DNA of 64,000 bases from Hoeflea prorocentri (GTDB lineage Bacteria; Pseudomonadota; Alphaproteobacteria; Rhizobiales; Rhizobiaceae): the NCBI RefSeq assembly GCF_027944115.1, contig NZ_JAPJZI010000001.1, forward strand, positions 248,001 to 312,000, given 5' to 3'. Position numbers and translations under genes: made by a program. The notes under the pieces are model-generated. The model was not told the origin of the DNA. It did no database searches and worked only from the letters and a program-made list of their open reading frames with translations. Shown here one piece after another: positions 21,020 through 42,106 of the stretch. How positions within the stretch are numbered: position 1 is the stretch's first letter; each line of letters begins with the position of its first letter.

Positions 21020-21063
21020 TGTCTAGCCCCCAATTCAGTGGTGCTGAAACTGGGGGCTAGACA
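21020..21063. repeat. 44-bp palindrome derived from an IS3-family end
   Basis: Arms TGTCTAGCCCCCA (21020-21032) and TGGGGGCTAGACA (21051-21063) are perfectly complementary around an 18-base loop. In reverse complement, its first 37 bases are identical to the left end of the IS3 element at 31485-31521. It then ends in an inverted copy of the 7-base tip instead of continuing into the element. It supplies the stop codon of the cyclase remnant. Confidence 0.75.
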
Positions 21064-21494
21064 ATAACACCCCTTGTCTGGATCGCCGCTTCGGCAAATG
21101 TCTCGATTCCCAACGGCATGACGTAGGCATCATCGCGCTTGGCTGGAGGGATAATATCGCGATCGGCCACATAGCCGTTGTAGAAGCACAACTGTGGTTC
21201 ACCCGTGCCGGTCAGATCGAACTCATAGCCAATATGAGCGAGGCTGTCCCACTGCGTTGAATACTGAGTACTCAACGTGACCCGGTCATCACAACCCCCA
21301 ACGCAGCAGCCAGGAGTTTCGTCTCTAAAGCGATAGTTGAAGTAGGGGCGACCTTAGGACCGGCCCTCAGTAACCGATTGCGTCGCTTCCACTACGCGTT
21401 CTGGCGTAATGTAGTTCAGGCTCCCCAGTTGATCATCTTCGCCGAAGTCACCCCAGTTGGATCCCTTCGGACGATGCGTCCAACGTTTACTCAT
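21057..21494 (-). pseudogene. Broken cyclase-family (kynurenine-formamidase-like) gene
   Basis: ATG 21494, with GAGGAG before it, starts MSKRWTHRPKGSNWGDFG and continues through DDQLGSLNYITPERVVEA, the N-terminus of the putative cyclase family (Mn-dependent hydrolases related to kynurenine formamidase). A TAA near 21352 interrupts the frame and an internal segment of some tens of residues is absent. The same frame then resumes with RPYFNYRF, STQYSTQWDSLAHIGYEFD and CFYNGYVADRD. It is cut at QTRGVIV by the IS-derived palindrome, losing the C-terminal third. Its start is 10 bases beyond the SDR stop, so it was the second gene of that operon. The product would have hydrolysed a cyclic or amide substrate. 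Confidence 0.75.
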
Positions 21495-21504
21495 CGTGCA
21501 CTCC

Positions 21505-22230
21505 TCAAACCGCAACGCCACCGATCGTCAGGCCGCCACAGACAAACAATGTCTGCCCGGTCACAAATCCGCTTTCCCGTGACAGAAAATAGTCCGCTGC
21601 GGATGCTACATCCTCAGGCTTTCCAAGCCTCTTGACGGGAACGGATGCGACAACTTGCTTCGTTACGTCGCTGTCTGGCGGGTTCGCGGCGCGATACAAT
21701 TCGGTTTCGATCGGACCCGGTCCAATCGCGTTGACCGTAATGCCGTGCTCGCCAAGCTCGAGCGCCCAGACGCGGGTGGCGGAAATCAGGGCACCTTTTG
21801 ACGCGGCATAGGACGTGCGCAAACCTCGGCCAAGAGCGGAGCGGCTGGAAACATTGACCACTCGGCCGAAACCGGCGTGGATCATTGCCGGAACCGCGGC
21901 TTTCACGATCAGAGAGGGAGCAAGGACGTTGATCTCCATCGTTCTCGAAAAATCACCTTCGTTGAGTTCGGTCAGGGGAGACAAGGCGGCAATGCCCGCG
22001 CAGTTGACGACCCGTGTGACCGAGTGCTTTGAAACCACATCTTCCAGAGTTGCCTTCAAGGCCGGTAGGTCGCCGAGATCGGTTTCGAAATAGACCCCAC
22101 CGCATTGGTCGTCAGGTGCCACCCGATCGAGATTGATGACAGTTTCATCCTTCTTCAGTCTCGATTGAACGATCGCCGCACCAATCCCGTTTGATCCTCC
22201 GGTGACAAGGGTTGCCTCAGGCTCTCGCAT
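21505..22230 (-). CDS. SDR-family oxidoreductase (module A)
   Basis: A short-chain dehydrogenase of about 241 residues from ATG 22230, which overlaps the 3' end of the IclR gene by 14 bases. An upstream TTG at 22263 is possible. It shows the cofactor motif TGGSNGIGAA, NCAGIAALS, the catalytic serine in VVNVSSRSAL, the YAASK catalytic tetrad and the NAIGPGPIETEL segment. By eye it is paralogous to the SDR at 37841-38653, sharing the SSRxALG, TRVWALEL and GLT-type C-termini. The reaction is presumably NAD(P)-dependent oxidation of a secondary alcohol or the reverse. It is followed by the broken cyclase gene. Confidence 0.9.
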   Translation of the reverse strand: MREPEATLVTGGSNGIGAAIVQSRLKKDETVINLDRVAPDDQCGGVYFETDLGDLPALKATLEDVVSKHSVTRVVNCAGIAALSPLTELNEGDFSRTMEINVLAPSLIVKAAVPAMIHAGFGRVVNVSSRSALGRGLRTSYAASKGALISATRVWALELGEHGITVNAIGPGPIETELYRAANPPDSDVTKQVVASVPVKRLGKPEDVASAADYFLSRESGFVTGQTLFVCGGLTIGGVAV

Positions 22231-23053
22231 TCCTCGGTGCCTTTCTCGATAGTCTCTTGGCAAAGGGCGTATCCAACAATGGCCCCGCCGTTTTTTGAAT
22301 TAGTTCGACCTCGACTTTCAGCGCATCGATTGCCTCATCAAGGCGCTCGCCCGAAATCCTCGAATTAATTGCCGCGACGGTTACCGCGGCCACACCTTGT
22401 CCTGTCGACCGACATATCGGCACGGCCACAGCGGACATGCCCTCAATGACCCGTGCATCGTTGAGCGCGTAGCCGTTGTTCCGCACCGCATCGATGCTCA
22501 TTTCCAACCAGTTCTGGTTGATGCCAAACTCCATACGACGATCCCGATCTTCCCTAAGTATGGTTTCCACGACCTCGTCGCTTTGTGTGGCCAACAGCGC
22601 GAGGCTTGCGGCGCCGACGCCCAACGGCCGATGATCGCCAATTTCCAGGGTTAGCGTTTTGATCGGGTATGTGCCTTCTCGGCGGTCGACACAGATAGAG
22701 TCACGCCCCGAAAGCAGGCTGAAGAAAATGGTGTCTTCCGTCTGCTCGCAAAGCCGATCCAGACTTTCGTCAACAAATGGCGCGAGACCGTAGCGTTCGC
22801 TCGCTGTAGCGCTCCAAGACAACATCCTCATTCCCAGAAAGTAGCGGTTGTTGTCCGCATCCTGATCCACAAACCCATGCGCGGTGAGGCCCGACAAAAG
22901 CCGGAAAATAACGGCCGTGCCGAGGCCGGTTTTTTCAACCAGGTCAATCTGTCTTAACCCACGTTCTTTTGCTTGCGCCAAAGCTTCCAGGACCATGGCC
23001 ACACGCGCCACGTTCTGATGCTCACCTTTTCCTGACTGCCCGGTTTTCTTCAT
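22217..23053 (-). CDS. IclR-family transcriptional regulator (module A)
   Basis: ATG 23053, preceded by GAGGAG, gives 278 residues. The frame extends to 23113, but that would approach the operator. The N-terminal winged helix (HQNVARVAMVLEALAQAKERG… VIFRLLSGLTAHGFV) is followed by the IclR effector domain (TYPIKTLTLEIGDHRPLGVG and VIEGMSAVAVPICRS). It is strongly similar by eye to the regulator at 32941-33780. It is the first gene of the minus-strand operon (IclR, SDR, cyclase) and faces the two-repeat protein gene. It probably binds the palindrome at 23130-23165 and answers to an organic acid. Confidence 0.9.
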   Translation of the reverse strand: MKKTGQSGKGEHQNVARVAMVLEALAQAKERGLRQIDLVEKTGLGTAVIFRLLSGLTAHGFVDQDADNNRYFLGMRMLSWSATASERYGLAPFVDESLDRLCEQTEDTIFFSLLSGRDSICVDRREGTYPIKTLTLEIGDHRPLGVGAASLALLATQSDEVVETILREDRDRRMEFGINQNWLEMSIDAVRNNGYALNDARVIEGMSAVAVPICRSTGQGVAAVTVAAINSRISGERLDEAIDALKVEVELIQKTAGPLLDTPFAKRLSRKAPRNARA

Positions 23054-23129
23054 TTCTGTCTCCTCACCTGCGCCTCTCTTTCTAACGCAAACCGGGCTCG
23101 CCTTGACAGCCAAGCCATATCATGGGAAA

Positions 23130-23178: not shown

Positions 23179-24027
23179 ATGGGTTCAGTAATGCTGGGAT
23201 CGATCACTGATCTGACGTCTAAGAGTTTCGACCAGATCGTTTTGGCTGGCTCGCATTGCGGGCTGGCAACGGGTCAGTTTGCGTTGTCGTGTAATGTCCG
23301 TGCGCTGGTGTGCAGCGATGCCGGAATCGGTCTGGATCAGGCAGGTATCTCAGGGCTTCAACTACTGAACGGCCACAAAATACCGGCCGTCAGCGTATCT
23401 CACATGTCCGCGAGGATCGGTGACCCGCACGATATGCTCAGACGCGGCAGGATCTCCCATGTGAATGGCGCTGCCGCTGAACTCGGTATCAAGCCCGGGC
23501 ATGCGGTTTCAACCACTGTCAGGACACTCACGGATACCGCTCCACGGCGTAAAGAGGGTCAACTCAAAAATCATCACGGTAAGGATTTTACGCGGCGTTT
23601 ACTGACAGACCCAAACGGCGGCATCGATGTTGTGATCATGGATTCTGCTTCACTCATCGGATCGAGTGACGATGGGTGTATCGTGGTCACCGGGTCTCAC
23701 GGCAGCCTTCCTGACAACAACAAAGAGCGGGCTTTGAAAGCTCGTCCCATTTTGGCCGTCTTCAATGACGCCGGCGTCGGCATCGACAAGGCCGGGATCA
23801 GTCGTATCCGTGCGCTCAACGCAATAGGTGTTGCCGCAGTTTGCGTCGATGCGGACAGCGCAAGGATTGGAGATGGATCGTCGACCTATGAAACCGGTGT
23901 GATCTCGCATCTCAACGAAGAAGCCAAGGCCTTGTTCCTTGAAGTGGGAATGTCCGTCCGAACCGCAATCGAACTCATCCAAAAAGGCTCTTCTGCTGGC
24001 GAAGTCCACTCGCCCCATGGCGCCTAG
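23179..24027 (+). CDS. Unrecognised protein with an internal tandem duplication
   Basis: 282 residues. I do not recognise the family. Two halves of about 90 residues repeat the same pattern. Residues 18-108 have VLAGSHCG, SDAGIGLDQAGIS, SARIGD and RISHVN. Residues 167-260 have VVTGSHGS, NDAGVGIDKAGIS, SARIGDG and GVISHLN. The conserved Gly-Ser-His, Asp-Ala-Gly and Ser-Ala-Arg-Ile-Gly-Asp blocks look like an active site or ligand site rather than mere structure. There is no signal peptide or membrane helix. It is the first gene of a plus-strand operon, 30 bases before the ThDP enzyme and directly behind the IclR operator, so it should serve the same pathway. A hydrolase, isomerase or synthase role is speculation. 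Confidence 0.75.
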   Translation: MGSVMLGSITDLTSKSFDQIVLAGSHCGLATGQFALSCNVRALVCSDAGIGLDQAGISGLQLLNGHKIPAVSVSHMSARIGDPHDMLRRGRISHVNGAAAELGIKPGHAVSTTVRTLTDTAPRRKEGQLKNHHGKDFTRRLLTDPNGGIDVVIMDSASLIGSSDDGCIVVTGSHGSLPDNNKERALKARPILAVFNDAGVGIDKAGISRIRALNAIGVAAVCVDADSARIGDGSSTYETGVISHLNEEAKALFLEVGMSVRTAIELIQKGSSAGEVHSPHGA

Positions 24028-24057: not shown

Positions 24058-25818
24058 ATGACCACCATCCAAGCAGTCGATCCTTCCGCGACTAACAATA
24101 CGATGTCTCTGACCGGTGCGGAGGCGATTGTTGAAATTCTGGAGCAAGCAAATGTCGGTCCGATGTTCGGCATGGGCGGGTTTCAGCTGCTCCCCTTCTA
24201 TGAAGCTGTTCGTGTTAAAGGTCTCACACATTTTCTGATCAACGATGAGAGATGCGGTGTGTTCGCATCGGATGCCTATGCGCGTGTCGCCGGAAAACCC
24301 GGGGTTTGCGATGCGACGCTCGGTCCGGGCGCAACGAACCTCGTCACCGGTTTGGTCGAGAGTCTGAACGCGGGCATTCCGCAGGTGGTTTTTGTAGGCA
24401 ACACCCACCGCGATCATTCCTGGAAAAATATGACTCAGGAATCTCGCCAGATCGATATTCTGCGACCCGCCGTCAAGGAAGTCATCCGCATAGAGCGTTC
24501 TTCCAGGGTTCCCGAACTGGTGCGCCGTGCCTTTGCCGTTGCGACATCGGGCCGGCCTGGCCCGGTCGTTGTCGACGTGCCGGAGGATATCGCCCACGAT
24601 GTCTATGACTATCCTGTCGATGACTTCTGGATCGATCCCGTAACAACAGCATCTCCCGCATACCGCTCCCACCCGGCAGCGGAGGACGTCGCCAAAGCTG
24701 CCCAGGCGATCGCGAAAGCAAAACGTCCTCTGCTGCTGGTCGGAGGCGGCATTCACAATGCCGGCGCCTACAAGGAACTACTGAACCTTGCCGAAGCGCA
24801 AGCCATTCCGGTTGCGCATACACTCTCAGGCAAAGGGGCAATTGCCTGCACACATGAGCTTTCGGCCGGTCTGTTCGGTCGTTATTCGCGGATCGCCAAC
24901 GATCTTATCGATACCGCGGATTGCCTGATCGTTGTTGGGTGCAAACTCGGTGAGATCGCCACCAAACGGTTTGCTCTGTTCAACAAAAACGTCCCGCTGA
25001 TTCATCTCGATGTCCTGCCTGAGGAAATCGGGCGAACAACGCCCGCCGACGTAGCCCTGATTGGCGACGCAAAGTGTGGGCTTGGCGATCTCAGCACTGC
25101 ACTTTGTGACGAGAGTGGCAAGGCGATCCGCGACCGCGCGTCCTATGTACAGGAAATTCCGGCTCGCATGACCAAATGGCGTGAGGGCGCGAAGGATAAG
25201 CTGACGGATACCAGCAGTCCCATTGGCATGGGACGCATGCTGACAGAACTCAACAAAGCCATGCCGGCTGAATCGGTGTTGATCGCCGATGGCGGCTTTG
25301 CGGCTCACTGGGGTGGCCTTCTCTATGATACGAAAAGAGCCGGCCGGCGCTTTGTGGCCGACCGCGGTTTTGCATCCATCGGCTACGGCCTTCCCGGCGC
25401 AATGGGTGTTCAGCTGGCAGTGCCCGAGCAGCCCGTCGTCGCCATCACCGGCGATGGCGGATTCAACATGGTGATCGGGGAACTGGAGACCGCACTGCGC
25501 GCCAAGACGCCGTTCACCCTGATGATCGTGAACAATGCTGCATCCGGTTACATCAAATCGCTACAGCACGCGATGTACGGCAACTACCAGTCCTCAGATC
25601 TCGTTGAAATGAACTATGCCAACATCGCCGAGAGCTTTGGCTGCCATGGCGTTCGGGTCGAGGATCCGGAGGAGTTGGGGCCGGCCATAAGGGTCGCCAA
25701 CGCGGAGCGCTCGAAACCGTCCGTCGTGGATGTCGTGGTCACGCGCGACCCGGCCAAGATGTTGCCCGGCGTCGACAGCAGAACCTTGAAAATCAAGAAA
25801 GGCGATCGACCGGTCTGA
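24058..25818 (+). CDS. Thiamine-diphosphate-dependent enzyme (module A)
   Basis: 586 residues with the three-domain layout of acetolactate-synthase-like enzymes. The N-terminal PYR domain has TGAEAIVEILE and the cofactor-activating Glu64 in NDERCG. The central domain is near 200-330 (RPLLLVGGGIHNAGAY). The C-terminal PP domain has the ThDP motif GDGGFNMVIGE at about 464 ending in IVNN. No small regulatory subunit gene follows, so it is not a biosynthetic acetohydroxyacid synthase. By eye it is a close paralogue of the enzyme at 38787-40544. Plausible reactions are decarboxylation of a 2-oxoacid, cleavage of a cyclic dione or acyl transfer; the substrate is unknown. It lies between the two-repeat gene and a TRAP transporter. 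Confidence 0.88.
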   Translation: MTTIQAVDPSATNNTMSLTGAEAIVEILEQANVGPMFGMGGFQLLPFYEAVRVKGLTHFLINDERCGVFASDAYARVAGKPGVCDATLGPGATNLVTGLVESLNAGIPQVVFVGNTHRDHSWKNMTQESRQIDILRPAVKEVIRIERSSRVPELVRRAFAVATSGRPGPVVVDVPEDIAHDVYDYPVDDFWIDPVTTASPAYRSHPAAEDVAKAAQAIAKAKRPLLLVGGGIHNAGAYKELLNLAEAQAIPVAHTLSGKGAIACTHELSAGLFGRYSRIANDLIDTADCLIVVGCKLGEIATKRFALFNKNVPLIHLDVLPEEIGRTTPADVALIGDAKCGLGDLSTALCDESGKAIRDRASYVQEIPARMTKWREGAKDKLTDTSSPIGMGRMLTELNKAMPAESVLIADGGFAAHWGGLLYDTKRAGRRFVADRGFASIGYGLPGAMGVQLAVPEQPVVAITGDGGFNMVIGELETALRAKTPFTLMIVNNAASGYIKSLQHAMYGNYQSSDLVEMNYANIAESFGCHGVRVEDPEELGPAIRVANAERSKPSVVDVVVTRDPAKMLPGVDSRTLKIKKGDRPV

Positions 25819-25896
25819 TCCCGGTGGAAGGAGTCATTCTTGAAATAGTGGAGCTTGCCACCTGAAGATTTTTCGCTGAACCGAAGGGAGGAACAT

Positions 25897-26130
25897 ATGC
25901 GAAATTTACTCAAGACACTCACCTGTGCAGTAACAGCCGCATTTCTGTCCGGTACGGCTTCCATCACACCGCCCATCGGCATCAACATCTTCACCATCGC
26001 CAGCATTGGAGACGTCGACATTCGGCGGATCGCTCTTCAGATCGCACCATTCCTTCTCATGATCGTTGCTCTGATGTTCATCGTCATTTTCTTCGAGGAG
26101 ATTGCGGCATGGCTGCCAAGCATGATGTAG
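25897..26130 (+). pseudogene. Scar of a deleted TRAP transporter: DctP start fused to DctM end
   Basis: The 77-codon frame has GGGAGGA before ATG 25897. It begins MRNLLKTLTCAVTAAFLSG, a signal peptide of a TRAP solute-binding protein. At about residue 22 it switches to ITPPIGINIFTIASI, followed by a hydrophobic helix and AAWLPSMM, which is the C-terminus of a TRAP large permease (compare LITPPIGLN and the terminal EIVLWLP of the intact DctM ending at 28051). The intervening binding protein, small permease and most of the large permease have been lost in one in-frame deletion. The product, if made, would be a short membrane peptide. A complete TRAP set follows immediately. Confidence 0.75.
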
Positions 26131-26184: not shown

Positions 26185-26745
26185 ATGAAGGGCCTATTTT
26201 TAGCTTTCAGGCGTTTTGAGGACGGCCTAACAGCCGTCGCCGCCGCAGCCGTGTTCTTTGTCATGTCCTTGGGTGTCGCGGAAATTGCAGGGCGCAGTGT
26301 CTTCAACGCACCAATCCAGGGGCACACCGATCTCGTGATTGTTGCGATGCCGGTTATCGTCTTCCTTGGCATCTCCCAGTGTCTTCGCAAAGACAGCCAC
26401 ATCCAGATGTCTCTGATCATCGACATGTTGCCGTACCGCGCAGCCGCTGCAGTCAAATCGATCGGGTGCCTGATCAGTTCGGTGACGATCCTCTGTATTT
26501 CGATTGGTGCCTATCGAAACTTCGAACGGGCTCTCACTTTCAATGACAACACCGCAGACCTGCGCTTGATAACATGGCCGTTCAAACTGATCGTGGCCGG
26601 CAGTCTCTTGTTGCTCGCGATCCGATTTGCAGTTTTTGCGATTGGGTACACCCGCGAGGCCTTCGCGATGAAGACGGAGGCCGACGGAAACCTCCTCCCG
26701 GAAGCACACGACGAGCTTGATCTGGAGACTGTCCGCGATGACTGA
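26185..26745 (+). CDS. dctQ: TRAP transporter small permease (DctQ type)
   Basis: 186 residues with four hydrophobic segments, the first at about residues 15-40 (AAAAVFFVMSLGVAEIAGR) and the others around 48-65, 90-110 and 133-155. The VFNAPIQGHTDLV segment after the first helix is typical of DctQ. A ribosome-binding site, AAAGGA, precedes ATG 26185. It forms the membrane complex with the large permease, whose start overlaps its stop by 8 bases. The system imports organic acids driven by the sodium or proton gradient. Confidence 0.88.
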   Translation: MKGLFLAFRRFEDGLTAVAAAAVFFVMSLGVAEIAGRSVFNAPIQGHTDLVIVAMPVIVFLGISQCLRKDSHIQMSLIIDMLPYRAAAAVKSIGCLISSVTILCISIGAYRNFERALTFNDNTADLRLITWPFKLIVAGSLLLLAIRFAVFAIGYTREAFAMKTEADGNLLPEAHDELDLETVRDD

Positions 26746-28051
26746 TCTGGATACCTCAACACTCGGACTCTTGAGTGTCGTCTTTCTCATGGCCCTCGTT
26801 GCGGGCGGGATTCGTATTTTCGTCGCCGCGGCGCTTGTCGGTTTCCTTGGACTGGCTTCACTCAGAGGATGGGATGCCGCAATCGGATTGGCCGGACTTA
26901 CACCCTATGCGAAGGCGGCCTCATATCAGTTCAGTGTCCTGCCGATGTTCATTCTTATTGGCTTCTTGGCCTTCCACGCCGGTCTTACGAGAAATGTCTT
27001 TGAGGCCGCCAGGATCTGGGTCGGTAGGCTTCCAGGAGGATTGGCTGTCGCGACAATTCTTGCAACGGCGGGCTTTTCGGCGGTCTCCGGAGCAAGCACG
27101 GCGACGTCGGCCGTCTTTTCCAGGATCGCTCTGCCCGAGATGCTTGGCCGCGGCTACAAGGTCGCGATTTCCGCCGGCGTCGTAGCCGCTGGCGGCACAC
27201 TGGCCTCGCTCATCCCGCCGAGCGGTATTTTGGTTATCTACGGGATCATTGCGGAAACATCGATTGGAAAGCTCCTCATTGCAGGTTTTGTCCCGGGCTT
27301 TCTGTCTGCCGCGATCTACGTGCTTTTGCTCGTCTTCCTGTTTAAACGAAACCCCGGCCTGGGACCGGCGGGCACAGCCTTTCCTCTGCGCGAAAAGATC
27401 GCGTCCATTCGCAAGGTGAGCGGCATCGCTGTCGTCATCATGATCGTGCTCGGGGGTCTCTATACCGGCCTCCTGACGCCGACAGAAACCGGCGCCGCCG
27501 GCGCCTTCGTGATGTTGCTTTTTTGCGTCTTTCGAGCCGATTTCAAACTCGAAAACATGGCCCATGCCTTCATGGAAACCGTGAAGGTATCCTCGATGAT
27601 TTTCGCGGTGATTTGGGCCGTCCTCATATATGTCCGGTTTCTCGGTTTCACAGGTTTGCCCAACGACATCGCAGCCTATGTGCTGAGCTTTGATGTCAAT
27701 CGCTACGTCATCCTAATCGCGATCCTGCTGTTTTATGTCGTCCTCGGCATGTTCATGGATGCGATCGGCATGTTGCTCCTCACCTTGCCGATCGTCATCC
27801 CGACGATCATCGGTCTGGGTTTTAACGAAATCTGGTTCGGCATCATCCTCGTTAAAATGGCCGAGATTTGCCTGATAACTCCCCCGATCGGGCTGAACTG
27901 CTTCGTGGTCCACGGGGTGCGGCCGGACATTCCCATGAACAAAATCTTTCAAGGAGCGGCTCCGTTTTTCGTCGCCGACGTCGCTACCGTCGGCCTTCTG
28001 ATCGCAGTTCCTGAAATCGTCCTCTGGTTGCCTAACCAGATGGCGAACTGA
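26738..28051 (+). CDS. dctM: TRAP transporter large permease (DctM type)
   Basis: ATG 26738, inside the end of dctQ, gives 437 residues. The frame reaches back to 26717, but this start fits the coupled overlap. About twelve hydrophobic segments follow the DctM pattern, with the conserved blocks SGASTATSAVFSRIALPEM, GGTLASLIPPSGILVIYG, TPTETGAAGAF and the C-terminal EICLITPPIGLNCFV. It is the transport subunit. The organic acid is unknown, but the position directly after the ThDP enzyme indicates that it feeds that pathway. Confidence 0.92.
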   Translation: MTDLDTSTLGLLSVVFLMALVAGGIRIFVAAALVGFLGLASLRGWDAAIGLAGLTPYAKAASYQFSVLPMFILIGFLAFHAGLTRNVFEAARIWVGRLPGGLAVATILATAGFSAVSGASTATSAVFSRIALPEMLGRGYKVAISAGVVAAGGTLASLIPPSGILVIYGIIAETSIGKLLIAGFVPGFLSAAIYVLLLVFLFKRNPGLGPAGTAFPLREKIASIRKVSGIAVVIMIVLGGLYTGLLTPTETGAAGAFVMLLFCVFRADFKLENMAHAFMETVKVSSMIFAVIWAVLIYVRFLGFTGLPNDIAAYVLSFDVNRYVILIAILLFYVVLGMFMDAIGMLLLTLPIVIPTIIGLGFNEIWFGIILVKMAEICLITPPIGLNCFVVHGVRPDIPMNKIFQGAAPFFVADVATVGLLIAVPEIVLWLPNQMAN

Positions 28052-28085
28052 GCAATAGAGAGAGCACCTAACAGGAGGAATTACT

Positions 28086-32630: not shown

Positions 32631-32789
32631 TTCCAATCCCTCCTGTGGCACCAAAATAGTGGCACAGTTTTACGGGGCTAAGACATTTAAGCAGTCATGG
32701 TTTCGGTCTTGCTGGCTAAAACGCGATTTTCATGCCTTTACTAGGATGTTCCACTTTATAAAAACTGGGTTAAGCAGCTATTTTAGAAC

Positions 32790-32804
32790 GGAATTTTAAC
32801 GGAA
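32790..32804. promoter_or_regulatory. Putative IclR half-operator upstream of the second IclR gene
   Basis: GGAATTTTAACGGAA preserves the ten right-hand bases TTTAACGGAA of the palindrome found at 23151, 30578 and 38682, and the same half-motif, GAACGGAA, partly recurs just before it. It lies about 140 bases before the IclR start and may serve its autoregulation. Confidence 0.4.
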
Positions 32805-32940
32805 CTAAGTTTCGGTATTGAGTTGACATGTTTATCAAGATCGTAGATTTTTTGGTTTCATCGAGCCAACGATGCAAATCCTGACTTAATATCAGACGTT
32901 GCTCAATGGCTACGAAACGGCGAGAGACGATCAGAACGAT

Positions 32941-33780: not shown

Positions 33781-33792
33781 TTAAAAGCCAAT

Positions 33793-35286
33793 TCAACTTT
33801 GCGGTCCTTGACGATCAATTTTTGCATCTTTGATCTCATGCCGTGCTGACCACACAAGCGACGCGACAAACAGCACTATGAACACCCAGCAAATCGGACT
33901 GCGGAAAAAGTAAGTCCAATCGTCAGCTATCAACAAGCTTCGACGCAGGTTGTCTTCAAACTTGGGTGCCAAAATGAATGCTAGAATAAATGGTGCAATT
34001 GGGATCTGTGTCTTCTTGAATGCAAAACCAATGACACCGAAAAACAGCATCACACCGACATCAAATAGATTGTTTGCAACCGCATAGCTGCCAAACAGAC
34101 AGAACAAGAAGACTATTGGCATAAGCAACTCGCCCGGTACACGCGTGATAACTGCAAACGACTTCATAACGAAACGGCCAGCAATCAGCAGCACGATTGA
34201 ACTGAACATCACACCCAAAAAGATAGCGTAGACAATGTCGGCGTTCGTTTGAAACAGGAGGGGGCCGGGAGCCAAATTATGTATCGTGAAAGCCCCAAGG
34301 ATCACTGCGGTAACAACATCGCCTGGCACTCCAAGGGCCAATAAAGGGATCATTGTTGCGCCAGCGACACCGTTGTTTCCTGCTTCTGAAGCACAAACGC
34401 CCTCCACCTCACCCTTACCGAATTTGTCGCCATTCGGAGAAAACCTCTTCGCCAAACCGTAAGAAAGAAAGGCCGCAGCTGTCGCTCCCGCACCCGGAAT
34501 GGCTCCGACAATGACCCCAATAAAACTGCCTCTAAAGATTGAAGGTGCACACTTACGGTAGTCCTCAAGAGTGAACTTGGACCTATCCAATGCGCGAGCC
34601 GAATGTTCCTGTGCCCTTTTGTGATAGAATTCTAGGATTTCTGGCAAGGCAAACAAACCGACCAGCATCGGGATGAAACTTATACCGCTCATCAGGTTCA
34701 GATTGCCGAACGTCAGACGTTCAGTTCCATAAACAAGATCCAGACCTACCAAAGAAAATATCACGCCAATCAATGCAGATATCATTCCTTTCACTTGTGA
34801 CCCCGATGAAATCGCAATGACAATCGTGAGTGAAAACGCGATAAGCCACAGAAATTCCGGTGGACCAAATTTTAAGGCTATCGAAGCCAAAACCCCTGCG
34901 AACAATATCAGGCAGATGTTTGAGACCAGATCGGCAGTACAGGAAGCGTAAAGTGCGCCCATTAATGCGCGCGTTGCTTGCCCATTCTGTGTCATCGGGT
35001 ATCCATCAAGCGTGGTACATGCGGCCGCGGGTGTTCCGGGTGTGCGAATGAGAATTGCGGAAATAGATCCTCCAAGAACGCCACCTTTGTAAATCCCAAC
35101 AAGCAGCAGGATGGATGTCACCGGGTCCATATGGAACGTGAACGGAAGGACAAGGGCCACACCCATGACCGCAGATAATCCTGGAATAGCCCCGATGAAC
35201 AACCCGATGAGGACACCCGCTGCTATGGCCAGGAAATTTTGCAGCTGGAAGAAAACATCAACTGCGCCTTGAAGGTTAGCAAGCAT
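33793..35286 (-). CDS. tctA: Tripartite tricarboxylate transporter, large permease TctA
   Basis: 497 residues, close to the family norm, with about twelve hydrophobic segments. Conserved blocks are the N-terminal GAIPGLSAVMGVALVLPFTF and GIYKGGVLGGSISAILIRTP, and the second-half GAIPGAGATAAAFLSYG and EAGNNGVAGATMIPLLALG. It forms the sodium- or proton-coupled membrane channel of the TTT system. It is encoded 12 bases after tctB in a minus-strand operon with tctC. The TctC receptor determines specificity, usually di- or tricarboxylates. Confidence 0.94.
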   Translation of the reverse strand: MLANLQGAVDVFFQLQNFLAIAAGVLIGLFIGAIPGLSAVMGVALVLPFTFHMDPVTSILLLVGIYKGGVLGGSISAILIRTPGTPAAACTTLDGYPMTQNGQATRALMGALYASCTADLVSNICLILFAGVLASIALKFGPPEFLWLIAFSLTIVIAISSGSQVKGMISALIGVIFSLVGLDLVYGTERLTFGNLNLMSGISFIPMLVGLFALPEILEFYHKRAQEHSARALDRSKFTLEDYRKCAPSIFRGSFIGVIVGAIPGAGATAAAFLSYGLAKRFSPNGDKFGKGEVEGVCASEAGNNGVAGATMIPLLALGVPGDVVTAVILGAFTIHNLAPGPLLFQTNADIVYAIFLGVMFSSIVLLIAGRFVMKSFAVITRVPGELLMPIVFLFCLFGSYAVANNLFDVGVMLFFGVIGFAFKKTQIPIAPFILAFILAPKFEDNLRRSLLIADDWTYFFRSPICWVFIVLFVASLVWSARHEIKDAKIDRQGPQS

Positions 35287-35298
35287 GCCGAAAAGTTC

Positions 35299-35781
35299 CT
35301 AGAATAGACCTAAAGGGATTGGCACGCTCAGAATGAGGCCGAAAAACCCCGAAACAATGAGTGGAAATATCAAGCCAACAACTGCGTAAGAGGTTAGGTG
35401 CGCGCGTCCAGACAACTTCAGCAACCCTATCCCCACAACGGCGCCTGCGAGAGGTAAACCGATCAAGTAAGAGAGTGGCAGGCTTGCAAGTAACAGCAAC
35501 AATCCAAGAAACTCGTTTAGTGATACAGCGCCGAACCGTGTGGTTAATTCGGTGTTTCGTGCACCAGCTCGAAATGTTCCCACAAAACCTATGATCGCAA
35601 ACAGACCAACAAGTATTGTGCTGCAGTATGCGAGGAAACGTGGGCTTGATGGGTCAAAGACTGACCCATCATTGTCCGCCGGTAAATTGATGCCATAGGG
35701 AATTCCGATGGCGGAAAATCCCACTGAAATGGCGAAAAGCGAGACGTAAAGTAGGCCATCACCGCTAATTTTGGTCTTCAT
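35299..35781 (-). CDS. tctB: Tripartite tricarboxylate transporter, small permease TctB
   Basis: 160 residues with four hydrophobic segments, the usual TctB layout. There is an N-terminal helix ending IGIPYGINLP, a second around residues 45-65, and the last two in LLLLLASLPLSYLIGLPLAG and VGLIFPLIVSGFFGLI. It is the weakly conserved small subunit that pairs with TctA, recognised mainly by size, topology and position between tctC and tctA. Confidence 0.88.
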   Translation of the reverse strand: MKTKISGDGLLYVSLFAISVGFSAIGIPYGINLPADNDGSVFDPSSPRFLAYCSTILVGLFAIIGFVGTFRAGARNTELTTRFGAVSLNEFLGLLLLLASLPLSYLIGLPLAGAVVGIGLLKLSGRAHLTSYAVVGLIFPLIVSGFFGLILSVPIPLGLF

Positions 35782-35823
35782 GGCTTGGCCTTCCCCGCCT
35801 CGCTCTTCGCCTTGTTGAGCGGT

Positions 35824-36804
35824 TTATTTTTTAGGAATGCCTGCAGTGTTCACGACATCATTCCACTTTGCTAATTCATTTGCCACATGCGCGCGCAGAT
35901 CTTCAGGCGAACCGCCGTCAATTGTTGCTGCTCGACTTACGGCGAAATCCCGGAAGTCATCCGTTTCAAAAACCGCGTTAAGTGCCTTATTGATCTCTGC
36001 GACCTTTTCGTCTGAGATTCCCTTTGGTGCAAACATCCCGAACCAAGCCTGAACTTCGAAATCCGACATCGAAGCTCCGCCGACTTCTTGGATCGTTGGG
36101 ACATCTGGAAGCTGAGGAGAGCGCTCCGCAGTAGTGACCGCCAGCGCTTTTACTGCACCTGACTGGATATGTTTGATAGCAGAAGGCGCGTTGTCGAACA
36201 TCATATCGACCTGTGCACCAAGCAAAGCTGGAATGGCTTCACCACTACCTTTGTAGGGAACGTGAACGATATCAAGGCCCGTATTGGCCTTGAATAGTTC
36301 GCCGGACAAATGAACGGAACTACCTACGCCTGAGGAAGCAAAAGTGAGCTTCTCTGATTTAGCGAGTTCGAGCAATTCTTCATAAGTGTCTGCGGGAGAA
36401 CTCGCAGGTACAACCAAAACGTTCGGGACGGAATATACCCGCCCGATAGGCTCAAAGCTGTCGACTGGATCATACTGCAATGAGGTGTAGATCGCTGGAG
36501 CGATGCCATGGGATGAGATCTGACCCAAGAAGAGGGTATTGCCGTCATTAGGCGCGCCAGCTGCTTTTGTTGTTCCGAGCGTGCCGCCTGCGCCTGGAAA
36601 ATTCTGAACGACAATGCTCTCACCCGTCTGACTTGACAAAATGTCTGCAATTTTGCGGGCGGTCGTGTCCGTTGAACCACCGGCTCCATAGGAGACGATC
36701 AGTTCTATTGTTTCTGTTGGCCATTCATCCGCGGCGGATACCGCTGGGAACATCATTGTCGAGGCAATGATTGCTGCACTTAAACTCTTAACTGTTAGCT
36801 TCAT
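35824..36804 (-). CDS. tctC: Tripartite tricarboxylate transporter receptor TctC (Bug family)
   Basis: 326 residues with a signal peptide (MKLTVKSLSAAIIASTMMF, ending AVSAA), then the TctC fold: the ligand-loop IVSYGAGGSTDTTARKIA near 34, NFPGAGGTLGTTKAAGA near 65 and VPYKGSGEAIPALLGAQVDM near 185. It binds a carboxylate in the periplasm. It is the first gene of the tctC-tctB-tctA operon. Its promoter region contains TTCCGATAAAA at 36830, reminiscent of the IclR half-operator. Confidence 0.93.
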   Translation of the reverse strand: MKLTVKSLSAAIIASTMMFPAVSAADEWPTETIELIVSYGAGGSTDTTARKIADILSSQTGESIVVQNFPGAGGTLGTTKAAGAPNDGNTLFLGQISSHGIAPAIYTSLQYDPVDSFEPIGRVYSVPNVLVVPASSPADTYEELLELAKSEKLTFASSGVGSSVHLSGELFKANTGLDIVHVPYKGSGEAIPALLGAQVDMMFDNAPSAIKHIQSGAVKALAVTTAERSPQLPDVPTIQEVGGASMSDFEVQAWFGMFAPKGISDEKVAEINKALNAVFETDDFRDFAVSRAATIDGGSPEDLRAHVANELAKWNDVVNTAGIPKK

Positions 36805-36997
36805 ATTTTTCCTCCCTAACGAAACAAAGTTCCGATAAAAGTTATTTTATATTTATATCAGGTGTCAAGTTCCGCGACATTGGGTCCAAAGATTTTCGAT
36901 GTTTCGGACAAGCAGAACGTCCTTGAACAATGCTCAACGGAGTGATCGTGAGACAAATTTATGTAGTTGGAACAAACTTGCACCGGTGCCTGCGCGG

Positions 36998-37804
36998 TTA
37001 ACAACGCAATGTCAGACCGCCATCTATCACGAGTTCTGTGCCCGTTATTGATTTCGCTCGATCCGAGGAGAGGAAGGAGACTGCGTGCGCCACATCCCAT
37101 GCATCTCCCATTTTTCCGATAGGGACTTTACTATCGCGCTCGGCGATGAATTTTACTGCCTCTGAGGGGTCTTTGTTTTTCATCAATCTCTCTGTGACCA
37201 ATGGAGTATTCATAAGACCGGGAATGACAGTATTGATGCGAACACCTTGGCGCGCGACACTTATTGCGGACGATCGGCCCAATTGGATGAGTGCGGCCTT
37301 TGCAGCCGAATATGCCACGGCATTGCTCTCTAGGCATCGGATGCCAGCGATTGAACCAACGTTGATTACCGAGCCGCTCTTCCGCTTTATCATAACAGGC
37401 AATACAAGCTTCAAGATTCTGAAGACGTAACCAACATTAAGCTCGAACTGCCGTAGCCAAGCTTCGGGAGCGAGTGTTAAAATATCGCCCGGAACCGAGC
37501 CGCCTACACAGTTCACCAGAATGTCTATCTGCCCGAGATGCCGCTGCGCGGCCAAAACGGAGTTTTCTAGCTCGTGTTGGTCGATGACATCGCAAACGAT
37601 CTTTTCGAACGCCCCCACATATCGTTCCGTTTCCTGCAAGGCGGAAAGGTTCTGATCTATCCCGCAAACAGCTGCACCTTCAGCGCGCAGTACTGAGACT
37701 ATCGCACGTCCATTTCCCCACCCGCTTCCGACTGATCCAGCCCCAACAATAAGTGCGCGTTTACCCGTTAGCATTGCGCCAGGCTTGTAATTTGTATCTT
37801 GCAT
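36998..37804 (-). CDS. SDR-family oxidoreductase (module B, first)
   Basis: 268 residues with GGGGAGAG upstream of ATG 37804. The cofactor motif is the less common GAGSVGSGWGNG, an insert-containing variant of TGxxxGxG. NCVGGSVPGD, the catalytic Ser in VINVGSIAGI and the YSAAK tetrad follow, and then PGLMNTPLV. By eye it differs from the other two SDRs of the region and may act on a different alcohol or ketone. It is 36 bases from the second SDR gene on the same strand, so they form one operon running toward tctC. Confidence 0.88.
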   Translation of the reverse strand: MQDTNYKPGAMLTGKRALIVGAGSVGSGWGNGRAIVSVLRAEGAAVCGIDQNLSALQETERYVGAFEKIVCDVIDQHELENSVLAAQRHLGQIDILVNCVGGSVPGDILTLAPEAWLRQFELNVGYVFRILKLVLPVMIKRKSGSVINVGSIAGIRCLESNAVAYSAAKAALIQLGRSSAISVARQGVRINTVIPGLMNTPLVTERLMKNKDPSEAVKFIAERDSKVPIGKMGDAWDVAHAVSFLSSDRAKSITGTELVIDGGLTLRC

Positions 37805-37840
37805 TCTCTCCCCTGTCTGTCGTCTCGCGTTATGCAGTGC

Positions 37841-38653
37841 TCAAATATCTGCAATTCCGGCAGTCAAACCGCCGCAGACATAGAGTGTTTGTCCGGTGAT
37901 GAAGCCTGAGGTTTCTTCAAGGAAGAACTGAACCGCCCGAGCAACATCAGCCGTCGTGCCTAACCGTCCCACTGGAATTGACGACACGAGTGCCCGCTCT
38001 TGTGGGCTTCCCTTGGGGTTAACTTTTTCAAAGAGTTCAGTTGAAATCGGGCCAGGGCCGACGGCATTTACGGTTATGTTGTGCTGTGCGAGTTCCAAAG
38101 CCCAAACCCGGGTCATCGAAATCATCGCGCCCTTCGTTGCGGCGTAAGCTGTCCGATTGGACTTCCCGAGCGCCGCCCGGCTCGAAACATTTACAATGCG
38201 CCCCCAGCCAGCTTCCTTCATTGTCTCTGCCACTGCCTTTGCGCAATAAGCCGGACCAACCATGTTCAGAGGGACCAGTTTCTCAAAATCAGCATCGGTG
38301 GTCTCTGAAAGCGAATGGGATATCGAAAATCCAGCATTATTGACCAACCCAACAATGCTGAATTCTTCCTTTAATTCTCCAACGGTATTCTCAATCTGAT
38401 GCGCGTTCGTGAGGTCGACACGACGAAAAACGCAATCCTGGTCATCGCTGGGTTTTGCAATATCAAAATTGATGACGCTTGTGCTGGAGTCTGCCAGCGC
38501 CGCAATGACTGCAGCGCCAATCCCGCGTGATCCGCCAGTTACAATCACAGCGTTCGGTTTTTGACTAGCCAAAGATTCTCCCCCTCCTTCTAAGGTCGGT
38601 CCTATGCCAGGCGTTCCTGGCGTCGGATGGTCTAGATTCCGCTCGAACTTCAT
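37841..38653 (-). CDS. SDR-family oxidoreductase (module B, second)
   Basis: 270 residues, with an N-terminal extension of about 30 residues before the Rossmann motif TGGSRGIGAA. NNAGFSISH, VNVSSRAALG and the catalytic YAATKGAMIS are present, and it ends GFITGQTLYVCGGLTAG. It parallels the module A SDR at 21505-22230 (TRVWALEL, NAVGPGPISTEL), which supports a common origin of the two modules. The start faces the ThDP enzyme gene, with a palindromic operator in between, so both are probably controlled by the IclR regulator. Confidence 0.9.
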   Translation of the reverse strand: MKFERNLDHPTPGTPGIGPTLEGGGESLASQKPNAVIVTGGSRGIGAAVIAALADSSTSVINFDIAKPSDDQDCVFRRVDLTNAHQIENTVGELKEEFSIVGLVNNAGFSISHSLSETTDADFEKLVPLNMVGPAYCAKAVAETMKEAGWGRIVNVSSRAALGKSNRTAYAATKGAMISMTRVWALELAQHNITVNAVGPGPISTELFEKVNPKGSPQERALVSSIPVGRLGTTADVARAVQFFLEETSGFITGQTLYVCGGLTAGIADI

Positions 38654-38681
38654 TGAGTAAATCGAGTGAAAATAGGAAATA

Positions 38682-38696
38682 TTCCGTTTAACAGAA
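38682..38696. promoter_or_regulatory. Putative IclR operator between SDR and ThDP enzyme genes
   Basis: TTCCGTTTAACAGAA differs at one base from the perfect palindrome TTCCGTTTAACGGAA. It lies 28 bases before the SDR start and about 90 bases before the ThDP enzyme start. Confidence 0.55.
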
Positions 38697-38786
38697 CTTT
38701 TTCCCGTTGAAAAGGTATCCGAAGTGGTTCAGTATGCGTCGAATTTTGAGGCAGAGTTTCTCTGCACGGTATCAAAAGGGAGGAAT

Positions 38787-40544
38787 ATGGCCTTGCAAAA
38801 TAACCCCATAGACAGCGCTGACACTGTCACCATGACAGGCGCTGAGGCGATAGTAGAAATTCTGGAATGCGCCAAGGTTGGCCCAATGTTTGGGATGGGT
38901 GGGTTTCAACTGCTTCCTTTCTACGAAGCAGTGCGCGTTAAGGGATTGAACCACCATCTGATCAATGATGAGCGCTGCGGATCCTTTGCTGCAGATTCCT
39001 ATGCGCGCGTGTCTGGTCGGCCGGGAATTTGCGACGCAACTCTGGGCCCAGGAGCAACCAATTTTGTTACGTCATTGGTAGAAAGTTTGAATGCGGGCAT
39101 CCCTCAAGTCGTTTTCATCGGGGATACCCATCGGGATCACTCCTGGAAAAATATGACTCAGGAATCCCGTCAGGTGGACATTCTGCGTCCTGCTGCAAAA
39201 GAAGTGATCCGCATCGAGAGGGCTTCACGTGTTCCTGAGCTTGTGCGCCGAGCATTTGCGGTGGCCACCTCTGGTCGACCGGGTCCTGTTGTCGTGGATG
39301 TGCCCGAAGATATCGCACATGATACTTACGAGTATCCTCTTTCCGATTTTTGGATCGACCTAACCACAACCCGCTTTCCCGCATACCGTTCCCGCCCAGA
39401 TGCGGCGGATGTGGCGAAAGCTGCGGTAGCAATCGCAAAATCAAAGCGTCCTTTGATCTTGGCCGGTGGCGGTGTGCACATTGCACAGGCATATGACGCC
39501 CTGCAGGCTTTTGCTGAAGCACAAGCTATCCCAGTGGCGCACACTTTGTCAGGTAAGGGTGCGATTGCTTGTACCCATCAATTGTCTGTCGGCCTATTTG
39601 GTCGCTACTCGCGCATCGCCAATGCTCTCGTTGAGAAGGCTGATTGCTTTATTGTCGTCGGCTGCAAGATGGGAGAAATTGCGACCAAACGTTTCCAACT
39701 GTTCAATGACCCCTCTATTCCTGTCGTGCACCTTGAAGTGTTGCCCGAAGAAATAGGGCGAACCACGAAGTCTGATTTTCCTTTGATCGGTGATGCGAAA
39801 TGCGGGCTGGAAGATCTCACCGCCGCACTCAGTCATTATGGCGCGGCCGCGCAGCGTGATCGGGCCGAGTACATACTTGAAATCGCGCCGCGCATGGAAA
39901 AATGGCGCAACGCCGCCAAAGACAAACTGCATGGTACAGGTAGCCCGATTGGAATGGGGCGCATGCTGACTGAGCTGAACAATGAAATGCCAGCGGAGTC
40001 CGTTCTGATCGCAGACGGTGGCTTCGCTGCGCATTGGGGTGGCCTTTTGTATGACACCAAAAAGGCCGGACGTCGGTTTGTAGCCGATCGTGGCTTTGCC
40101 TCGATCGGTTATGGTCTGCCCGGCGCAATGGGGGCCCAGCTTGCTGTTCCAGATCAGCCCGTTGTGGCCATTACAGGAGATGGTGGCTTCAACATGGTTC
40201 TTGGCGAGCTTGAAACCGCCATTCGAGCTAAAACACCGTTCACGCTGATGATCGTGAACAACGCGGCATCGGGTTATATCAAGTCGCTACAGCACGCGAT
40301 GTATGGGTCCTATCAGTCCTCAGATCTTGTTGAAATGAACTATGCCGAAATCGCTAAATCCTTCGGCGCGCATGGCATTCGTGTTGATGATCCGGAGAAG
40401 CTTGCACCCGCCATTCGCGAGGCGAATGCCGAACGGTCGAAGCCATCAGTCATCGACGTCGTGGTCACTCGCGATCCAGCGAAGATGCTGCCAGGTGTTG
40501 ATAGCAGAACAATCAAAGTCAAGAAGGGCGATCGACCCGTCTAG
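38787..40544 (+). CDS. Thiamine-diphosphate-dependent enzyme (module B)
   Basis: 585 residues from ATG 38787, which follows GGGAGGA; the frame extends to 38724 without a good start. Layout and motifs repeat those of the enzyme at 24058: TGAEAIVEILE, the activating Glu in NDERCG, HSWKNMTQESRQ, GGGVHIAQAY in the central domain, and GDGGFNMVLGELE ending IVNN. Most blocks are identical by eye, so this is a duplicated enzyme that may have diverged in substrate. No regulatory subunit gene follows. The aldehyde dehydrogenase lies 77 bases downstream, suggesting that the product is an aldehyde that is oxidised next. Confidence 0.88.
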   Translation: MALQNNPIDSADTVTMTGAEAIVEILECAKVGPMFGMGGFQLLPFYEAVRVKGLNHHLINDERCGSFAADSYARVSGRPGICDATLGPGATNFVTSLVESLNAGIPQVVFIGDTHRDHSWKNMTQESRQVDILRPAAKEVIRIERASRVPELVRRAFAVATSGRPGPVVVDVPEDIAHDTYEYPLSDFWIDLTTTRFPAYRSRPDAADVAKAAVAIAKSKRPLILAGGGVHIAQAYDALQAFAEAQAIPVAHTLSGKGAIACTHQLSVGLFGRYSRIANALVEKADCFIVVGCKMGEIATKRFQLFNDPSIPVVHLEVLPEEIGRTTKSDFPLIGDAKCGLEDLTAALSHYGAAAQRDRAEYILEIAPRMEKWRNAAKDKLHGTGSPIGMGRMLTELNNEMPAESVLIADGGFAAHWGGLLYDTKKAGRRFVADRGFASIGYGLPGAMGAQLAVPDQPVVAITGDGGFNMVLGELETAIRAKTPFTLMIVNNAASGYIKSLQHAMYGSYQSSDLVEMNYAEIAKSFGAHGIRVDDPEKLAPAIREANAERSKPSVIDVVVTRDPAKMLPGVDSRTIKVKKGDRPV

Positions 40545-40621
40545 CATCCATCTCAATGGTGAAGCGGCAGCAACTTGCGTCGCGTCACCCTTAGCTTTCA
40601 ACTTAACCGCATCCTTTCTCC

Positions 40622-42106
40622 ATGACCGAAAACTCAAATAAATTGCCCGGAACTCTCAAGAACAGTGAACTTCTCTGCAACAGCGCGCTCATTGGTAACC
40701 GCTGGGTCCAAGCAGATGAAGTCCAGGTATCCTTCAAGGTCACGAACCCGTCGACTGGTGCTGTTCTTGCGACGTTGCCTGATCTAGGTGTTTCGGAGAC
40801 GCGGGCTGCAATTGATGCCGCCCATATTGCTCAAAAGTCCTGGGCGGCGAAGACGGGTAAAGAACGCTCAGTGGTGCTGCGGCGGTGGCACGATCTCATG
40901 GTCGCCAATGTCGATGATCTCGGCGCTATCCTCTGCGCTGAGATGGGCAAACCCCTTGTCGAAGCCAAGGGAGAGATCCTCTACGGTGCGAGCTTCATCG
41001 AATGGTTTGCCGAGGAGGCAAAGCGCATCTACGGCGACATCATTCCCGGCCATCAGCCCGACAAACGCATCATGGTCCTGAAGCAGCCCGTAGGTGTTGT
41101 CGCATCCATCACGCCATGGAACTTCCCCAATGCAATGATCGCGCGTAAAGTGGCTCCTGCCCTTGCGGTCGGCTGTGCCTTTGTTGCTCGACCCGCAACT
41201 GAGACACCCCTTTCGGCACTGGCCATGGCCAAACTCGCTGAAGATGCCGGGCTGCCGGCAGGGCTCTTCTCGGTCATCACATCGACACGGAGTGCGGAGA
41301 TCGGACAGGAGTTTTGCTCCAATGAAAAGGTCCGCAAACTCACTTTCACCGGTTCAACCGAAGTCGGTCGCATCCTGATGAAGCAGTCCGCCGATCAGGT
41401 GATGAAGACCTCCATGGAACTGGGCGGCAACGCCCCCTTCATTGTCTTTGACGATGCTGATCTTGATGCGGCCGTAGAAGGCGCGATGATATCGAAATAC
41501 CGCAACAACGGGCAGACCTGCGTATGCGCAAACCGCATATATGTTCAGGCCGGAGTCTATGACGCCTTTGCCGAGAAGCTTGTTGCTGCCGTCGAGGAGA
41601 TGAAGGTCGGCGACGGATTTGAGGATGGCGTCACTGCCGGCCCGCTGATCAGTGAGAAGGCTGTCGACAAAGTCGAGGACCACATCAAAGATGCGATCTC
41701 CAAAGGCGCATCGATTGTGACGGGTGGCAAACGACACGCGCTCGGTGGAACCTTCTTCGAGCCAACCGTGTTGAGGGATGTCACCCGAGAGATGTTAATT
41801 GCATCTGATGAGACTTTTGGACCAGTTGCTCCGCTCTTTCGCTTTGAAACCGTCGAAGATGTGGTCGAACAGGCCAATGATACGATCTTTGGCCTCGCAT
41901 CTTACTTCTATGCCAATGATCTTTCGAAGGTCTGGCGTGTGGCAGAAGCGCTTGAATACGGCATGGTTGGTGTGAACACAGGATTGATCTCTACCGAGGT
42001 CGCGCCCTTCGGAGGCGTCAAGCAATCGGGCCAGGGACGTGAGGGTTCGAAATATGGTGCCGATGACTATCTCGAACTGAAATATCTCTGTCTTGGAGGC
42101 CTTTAA
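40622..42106 (+). CDS. Succinate-semialdehyde-dehydrogenase-like aldehyde dehydrogenase (GabD type)
   Basis: 494 residues with TPWNFPN (Asn167), FTGSTEVGR near 242, the base Glu266 in MELGGN and the nucleophile Cys300 in GQTCVCANR. The second cysteine two residues on is a hallmark of the GabD group. The usual KPA of the NADP site is replaced by RPA (ARPATETP). It follows the ThDP enzyme and would oxidise its semialdehyde product to a dicarboxylate that enters central metabolism. The gene truncated by the IS at 31374 appears to be its module A counterpart. The family is clear; the physiological substrate is inferred. Confidence 0.9.
   Translation: MTENSNKLPGTLKNSELLCNSALIGNRWVQADEVQVSFKVTNPSTGAVLATLPDLGVSETRAAIDAAHIAQKSWAAKTGKERSVVLRRWHDLMVANVDDLGAILCAEMGKPLVEAKGEILYGASFIEWFAEEAKRIYGDIIPGHQPDKRIMVLKQPVGVVASITPWNFPNAMIARKVAPALAVGCAFVARPATETPLSALAMAKLAEDAGLPAGLFSVITSTRSAEIGQEFCSNEKVRKLTFTGSTEVGRILMKQSADQVMKTSMELGGNAPFIVFDDADLDAAVEGAMISKYRNNGQTCVCANRIYVQAGVYDAFAEKLVAAVEEMKVGDGFEDGVTAGPLISEKAVDKVEDHIKDAISKGASIVTGGKRHALGGTFFEPTVLRDVTREMLIASDETFGPVAPLFRFETVEDVVEQANDTIFGLASYFYANDLSKVWRVAEALEYGMVGVNTGLISTEVAPFGGVKQSGQGREGSKYGADDYLELKYLCLGGL

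Follow-up and report, generated by a model that had tools for sequence, protein, structure and literature searches.

A putative composite catabolic locus in Hoeflea prorocentri around a thiamine diphosphate-dependent enzyme subfamily and its tandem DUF1805-like partner

The described enzymes closest to those considered here include the large subunit of acetolactate/acetohydroxyacid synthase (TIGR00118, PRK06112) and the cyclohexane-1,2-dione hydrolase of Azoarcus (2pgn), a thiamine diphosphate (ThDP) enzyme for which PMC12247030 describes catabolic carbon-carbon bond cleavage. The stretch that we compared with them is a 64,000-nucleotide segment of the Hoeflea prorocentri genome (C1:248001-312000 of 5.04 Mb; hereafter the window), which carries two catabolic-looking gene sets, module A (21060 to approximately 31500) and module B (32899 to 42106), as delimited by reading frames and protein families. 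Each module encodes a ThDP enzyme (ThDP_A and ThDP_B), and module A also encodes a two-repeat protein, here named TWO, for which TA1206 (1qw2) and the Pfam family DUF1805 serve as comparison. Further points of comparison are the E1 alpha and beta subunits of acetoin/pyruvate dehydrogenases, and acid-sugar pathways of the D-apiose type, in which a RuBisCO-like protein occurs together with a four-carbon acid sugar kinase (Carter et al. 2018, as cited in PMC6302742).

An earlier reading of this DNA, made without database searches (the sequence-only reading), had described two paralogous modules and judged a shared catabolic pathway plausible. Reading frames and family matches find both gene sets at about the coordinates that it gave; taken overall, its observation is confirmed in part, its idea of a shared pathway is supported in part, and the duplication of a whole block is rejected. 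The main point of interest is the pair formed by TWO and the ThDP enzyme, together with its E1 companion, which that reading had touched upon and left unnamed. We tentatively read the stretch, with a confidence somewhat short of an even chance, as a composite catabolic locus centred on one subfamily of ThDP enzymes, with TWO as the usual partner and with a proposed route of import, oxidation and cleavage. What we observe is that the genes are there and that TWO and the ThDP enzyme co-occur; from this we infer the order of the steps, the kind of substrate and what TWO does.

TWO and its co-occurrence with the ThDP enzyme

TWO is encoded in module A (23179-24027, plus strand) by the only copy of its gene in the genome. 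The two halves of the protein share 35% identity over 117 aa (E 2e-16), which makes it a true two-repeat protein. It is probably a tandem of DUF1805-like domains; the tandem arrangement distinguishes it from Pfam DUF1805 and from TA1206, which we take to be itself a DUF1805 protein. The window protein reaches 23.7 bits against DUF1805 (PF08827), under the gathering cut-off of 29.5, and PF08827 is matched at E ≤0.01 by 40 of the 62 members of the TWO family. The alignments comprised the TWO of the window with 61 of 63 TWO hits, two being too short (A1), and 50 of the 62 second halves (A2). Foldseek searches with the whole protein or with its second half returned no match at E ≤0.001. The solved structure that comes nearest to the fold seen in TWO has itself no function assigned. 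Of the 62 TWO proteins, 21 matched IMS, a model of Y-family polymerases, at E ≤0.01, and short polymerase segments, some spanning 26-34 columns only, recurred in the fold searches; this likeness is taken as local.

With one genome scanned for each species, 348 relatives of ThDP_A came to light, from which the best 80 loci (61-79% identity) were kept; L-numbers below denote sampled loci and G-numbers sampled genomes, and the 15 loci L020-L033 and L036 are referred to as the close clade. A TWO gene is part of the locus itself in 65 of these, and 13 of the other 15 have it elsewhere in the genome, bringing the total to 78 of 80. In an evenly drawn class sample of 289 genomes (TWO at E 1e-20, ThDP enzyme at E 1e-150), TWO was found in 31, the ThDP enzyme in 26 and both in 24 (Fisher 1.2e-26), so that TWO, which the sequence-only reading had listed as an extra particular to module A, turns out to be a recurring partner of the ThDP enzyme. 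Among 101 relatives each was found in nine genomes and both in seven, two of the nine TWO hits being weak, and with both samples taken together TWO is present in 30 of 34 ThDP genomes. The two genes lie at most 10 kb apart in 19 of the 24 class genomes, adjacent in nine of these, and are unlinked in five (1.09 Mb apart in one, on different contigs in four). Because the co-occurrence persists without linkage, it argues for a shared function of the two proteins. A phylum-wide sample of 299 genomes was uninformative, with the ThDP enzyme in one (the genome of the window itself) and TWO in four. Some genomes probably stand both in the locus set and in the samples (G011/L021, G041/L066), and TWO hits at identical coordinates were seen in G396, G399 and G403 (L053, L075 and L099) and in G144, G295 and G180, respectively; the counts therefore depend on one another. 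Literature searches, which covered part of the whole, brought up no description of the TWO/ThDP pair.

In the route that we propose, a small organic acid would be imported by the tripartite ATP-independent periplasmic (TRAP) transporter of module A or by the Tct transporter of module B, a hydroxyl group would be oxidised by a zinc dehydrogenase or a short-chain dehydrogenase/reductase (SDR), and the keto acid or acyloin thus formed would be processed by TWO and the ThDP enzyme. TWO would be an enzyme in its own right, possibly with isomerase or tautomerase activity, and may be the missing partner of the ThDP enzyme, which would itself break a carbon-carbon bond; cleavage of a keto acid or acyloin derived from an imported organic acid is its most likely role, this substrate class being putative. 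The released semialdehyde would then be oxidised to a dicarboxylate by the succinate-semialdehyde-dehydrogenase-like aldehyde dehydrogenase (ALDH) of module B (40622-42106, plus strand; PF00171), the sole whole ALDH of both modules, which passes TIGR01780 (713 bits, cut-off 646) and stays under the stricter equivalog NF008415 (762 bits against 828). With a lone TWO in module A and a lone whole ALDH in module B, each of which would serve both gene sets, the modules would complement each other.

Several observations weigh against this reading. TWO is absent from the genomes of L021 and L027, from the class genomes G153 and G187, which have the ThDP enzyme, and, among the 101 relatives, from the ThDP genomes G011 and G033; the ThDP gene of G033 has an internal stop, and G011 is probably the genome of L021. 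Conversely, seven of the 31 class genomes with TWO have no such ThDP enzyme. That the modules are complementary is read from their gene content, and both TWO and the ThDP enzyme belong to uncharacterised families. Semialdehyde oxidation, which the sequence-only reading had placed in the shared pathway, is not a conserved part of it: such an ALDH stands in just one of the 15 close-clade loci, and because of this the final step may be peculiar to few genomes. The co-occurrence itself makes TWO and the ThDP enzyme directly testable with few purified proteins, and the two solute-binding proteins of the modules could guide to the substrate.

Homologues of TWO were also observed on two haloarchaeal plasmids (L101, 8938-12475; L107, 7896-11450), where the next genes after them encode a RuBisCO-like protein and a kinase of the four-carbon acid sugar type; genes of the TRAP, aldolase, SDR and IclR kinds are close by. 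This arrangement recalls the acid-sugar pathways of the D-apiose type, from which the window differs in that no RuBisCO-like or kinase genes are found among the annotated frames of both modules.

E1 companions and neighbourhoods in other genomes

In 48 of the 65 loci that do not belong to the close clade, E1 alpha, E1 beta or both (genes of the pyruvate/acetoin dehydrogenase type) lie beside TWO and the ThDP gene; those of L035 match PF00676, PF02779/PF02780 and the pyruvate dehydrogenase E1 models. E1 beta is present in 23 of the 26 ThDP genomes of the class sample (Fisher 1e-29) and in one genome without the ThDP enzyme (G336, 50% identity). TWO, the ThDP gene and E1 beta are found all together in 15 of these 23 genomes; in three, E1 beta accompanies TWO apart from the ThDP gene, in another three TWO accompanies the ThDP gene apart from E1 beta, and in two all three genes are apart. 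The wider-clade loci thus carry the same type of gene as acetoin and pyruvate dehydrogenases. Unlike in those systems, a motif scan of the loci, which could overlook one, picked out no lipoyl-type E2, and the genome of the window has no member of the E1 beta family at E 1e-90. The family is likewise absent from 13 of the 15 close-clade genomes, the exceptions being those of L029, in which it lies approximately 1.2 kb from TWO, and L033.

These distributions lead us to a broader proposal, for which we see a chance approaching, and not reaching, one in two: an undescribed pathway that cleaves or forms carbon-carbon bonds would be spread through the Alphaproteobacteria, with TWO and the ThDP enzyme at its core, joined in most of the sampled lineages by a stand-alone E1 alpha/beta pair, and TWO would be an enzyme of new activity. 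If this is true, no activity would have been assigned to a DUF1805-like fold before that of TWO, and the window would represent a lineage without the E1 pair, in which SDRs, a zinc dehydrogenase and an ALDH surround the core and the ThDP enzyme is doubled.

The other neighbours vary. They were counted from open reading frames, not from curated genes, and a large number of the loci come from metagenome bins or short contigs. Among the 15 close-clade loci, an IclR regulator was found in 13, a member of the SDR_A/SDR_B1 group in nine, a zinc dehydrogenase in four and a cyclase in one. A class III aminotransferase cluster occurs in L024, L025, L028 and L030 and a branched-chain-type aminotransferase cluster in L024, L025 and L028 (members from L024 scanned for both), an SMP-30-type lactonase cluster occurs in L021, L026 and L036 (L021 scanned), and a galactarate/altronate-type dehydratase occurs in five more distant loci (L035 scanned). 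Varied front ends seem to feed one step carried out by TWO and the ThDP enzyme. A single locus, L029, combines a TRAP set like that of module A (DctM 75%), a zinc dehydrogenase and an IclR regulator with relatives of SDR_B1 and SDR_B2, the SDRs of module B; because relatives of both modules' genes sit together there, the gene kinds of A and B appear to belong to one pathway, as this locus suggests.

The ThDP enzymes and their possible reactions

ThDP_A (24058-25818, plus strand; PF02775, PF00205, PF02776) and ThDP_B (38724-40544, plus strand) are 81% identical over 580 aa by BLASTP and are sisters with support of 100/99 in a 20-row tree, in agreement with the view that both modules have the ThDP reaction in common. 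Among the best 25 of 55 NCBIfam families for each enzyme, both remain under every cut-off: they score 405 and 394 bits against TIGR00118 (acetolactate synthase; cut-off 538), 389 and 397 against PRK06112 (673) and 291 and 281 against the glyoxylate carboligase family NF008431 (791), and ThDP_B scores 262 against sulfoacetaldehyde acetyltransferase (620). This enzyme is thus found in 26 of 289 class genomes yet reaches no cut-off among those families. No match to ThDP_A was found on plasmids at E 1e-100.

Among proteins of solved structure, ThDP_A scores best with BbmA (256 bits) and with acetohydroxyacid synthases (up to 242 bits). In the alignment with BbmA, ThDP_A has a Glu at the position where ThDP-activating Glu residues usually stand. 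Where yeast acetohydroxyacid synthase has the RFDDR stretch and a Trp, ThDP_A reads KLGEI and Leu; we take the RFDDR-type Arg and the pocket Trp to be hallmark residues of acetohydroxyacid synthases. The window enzymes share three ThDP domains, and their best NCBIfam matches, with the acetolactate/acetohydroxyacid synthase large subunit, and differ from it in falling below the curated cut-offs and, for ThDP_A, in these unmatched residues, which supports the earlier view that they are not biosynthetic.

Two other reactions were weighed against cleavage of a keto acid or acyloin. The ThDP enzyme could be a carboligase that synthesises an acyloin or a branched hydroxy-keto acid, which TWO would rearrange and later enzymes degrade. 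The higher-scoring solved relatives are indeed carboligases (acetohydroxyacid synthase, glyoxylate carboligase), but the scores lie under the cut-offs of both of these families, and the importers, dehydrogenases and IclR regulators give the genes a catabolic-looking setting; we consider this improbable. About equally improbable, in our judgement, is the opening of a ring, in which an SDR or the zinc dehydrogenase would make a cyclic 1,2-dione, the ThDP enzyme would open it in the manner of cyclohexane-1,2-dione hydrolase, the ALDH would oxidise the semialdehyde, and the cyclase would once have opened a related ring. That hydrolase is among the solved relatives of ThDP_A and belongs to the ThDP family, and a PF04199 cyclase accompanies the gene set in L020, with a similar frame in L085. 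Its 165 bits, a whole-sequence score only, are however exceeded by several other ThDP families, BbmA, the acetohydroxyacid synthases and the glyoxylate carboligases reaching 211-256 bits, and the cyclase is broken in the window and occurs in one of the 15 close-clade loci. Cleavage of a cyclic or branched diketone, one hypothesis of the sequence-only reading, is thus a possibility of low probability for the cyclic case.

History, decay and surroundings of the modules

The paralogous pairs proposed by the sequence-only reading are recognisable for the ThDP enzymes, for SDR_A (21505-22263, minus strand; PF13561, PF00106) and SDR_B1 (37841-38653, minus strand), which are 47% identical over 236 aa, and for the regulators IclR_A (22217-23113, minus strand) and IclR_B (32899-33780, plus strand), which are 41% identical over 252 aa (BLASTP in both cases). 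Both regulators contain HTH_IclR and IclR_C domains (PF09339, PF01614) above gathering. The fourth pair is reduced to a weak stub of the module A ALDH. The extra SDR noted in module B was confirmed as SDR_B2 (36998-37804, minus strand; SDR models), 28-31% identical to the other two by BLASTP, its nearest relative among the 80 loci being that of L029 (45%).

Gene trees, which by the same reading's own terms could refute it, go half against it: the ThDP enzymes are each other's closest relatives, the SDRs and the IclR regulators are not. SDR_A is grouped at 100/99 with its counterparts in L020, L022 and L023, not with SDR_B1, whose nearest relative is in L029 with modest support (86/89 in one tree, 95 in the Shimodaira-Hasegawa-like approximate likelihood ratio test in another). 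A sister tree of SDR_A and SDR_B1 was rejected by the approximately unbiased test (p 2.8e-5; 14 loci), as was one of IclR_A and IclR_B (p 0.0022; L047 left out for its long branch); these pairings were the ones proposed earlier. The ThDP trees included 40 of the 80 loci in one case and 18 in the 20-row tree; two ThDP groupings that were also tested (p 0.0024 and 0.0146) had been picked after quick trees and count for less. Since a sister relation holds for the ThDP pair and fails for the SDR and IclR ones, no block was duplicated, and this origin of the modules is ruled out. The ThDP genes thus share one history, by duplication or by old conversion within the lineage, and the regulators and SDRs have separate histories.

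The ThDP copies are old, since their fourfold-degenerate sites are just 32% identical; a recent duplication or conversion is unsupported. In columns 500-550 of their alignment, fourfold-site identity rises to 57%, a possible trace of an old exchange or gene conversion between the modules. Repeats of at least 40 bases between the modules fall into two families, both within the ThDP genes. A second ThDP match at E 1e-150 was found in no other genome among the 101 relatives and 289 class genomes.

Module A is, by its reading frames, partly decayed: its cyclase, SGNH hydrolase, ALDH and second TRAP transporter are remnants. The comparison is provided by L020, an A-type set with a whole cyclase frame and two TRAP sets, in the order zinc dehydrogenase, cyclase, SDR, IclR, TWO, ThDP enzyme, TRAP set, second TRAP set and ALDH, the last 59% identical to that of module B. 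The PF04199-type cyclase remnant of the window (21060-21527, minus strand) is 49% identical to the L020 frame and aligns to residues 23-202 of its 365; the alignment is interrupted by a 29-residue gap, the remnant contains a stop, and its end is missing. The L020 frame matches PF04199, and its single match in the PDB at E ≤0.01 is 5ibz, an uncharacterised protein; an isatin-type route was an early idea that we set aside. The remnant of the second TRAP transporter (25849-26127, plus strand) has its last 57 residues 72% identical to a DctM of the second TRAP set in L020 (16531-17802), and the SGNH/GDSL hydrolase (30611-30988, plus strand) is cut by a stop after 125 aa, covering positions 1-85 of the 178 of PF13472. 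The ALDH stub, an N-terminal piece (about 31377-31500, plus strand), is a weak tblastn match to the ALDH of module B (E 0.003) and lies where an insertion sequence starts; no convincing further ALDH piece was found in 30501-32950. The module A inventory drawn up by the sequence-only reading therefore stands for the TRAP transporter, the two-repeat protein and the zinc dehydrogenase (29434-30483, minus strand; PF08240, PF00107; 57% to L020), and its cyclase and SGNH hydrolase prove to be a fragment and a truncated frame.

These four broken genes, the different transporters of the two modules and the different ancestry of the SDR and IclR pairs would fit two separate pathways, with module A a dying relic, module B an independent route for another acid, and TWO uninvolved in module B. 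We regard this as unlikely, though less so than the two alternative reactions considered above: TWO, ThDP_A, SDR_A, IclR_A, the zinc dehydrogenase and DctQMP have kept whole frames in module A, and L029 unites relatives of both modules' genes.

In module A, the minus strand carries the cyclase remnant, SDR_A and IclR_A and the plus strand TWO, ThDP_A, the TRAP remnant and DctQ-DctM-DctP, followed at the far end by the zinc dehydrogenase, the SGNH frame and the ALDH stub, which stops at the insertion sequence. The TRAP genes (26185-29117, plus strand; 26185-26745, 26717-28051 and 28086-29117) match PF04290, PF06808 and PF03480, all three above gathering; the closest relatives of DctP, at low similarity, are an unnamed DctP and an isethionate-binding DctP (79 bits each). 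Module B has the order IclR_B, Tct genes, SDR_B2, SDR_B1, ThDP_B and ALDH. Its Tct genes (33793-36804, minus strand) had been read as TctABC, which family matches support for TctA (33793-35286; PF01970) and TctC (35824-36804; PF03401; closest relative BugD, 205 bits); TctB (35299-35781) is putative, assigned by position and size only. The insertion sequence between the modules (31501-32669, minus strand) consists of two reading frames, the second with PF00665 and PF13276, and is presumably IS3-like; a search of the genome gave no further full copy, only an 80-base match.

Elsewhere in the window, a serine-type recombinase with Resolvase and Recombinase domains (16367-18106) is located approximately 3 kb past the low end of module A, and adjoining genes for Hydantoinase A and B subunits are found at 9875-13926. 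On the other side, a 2710-aa RTX-type protein with 16 HemolysinCabind stretches is followed by ABC-transporter and HlyD-type frames (44001-55164), an arrangement as in a type I secretion set, and a TPS domain of two-partner secretion is present in a large protein (60476-64000) that continues past the end of the window.

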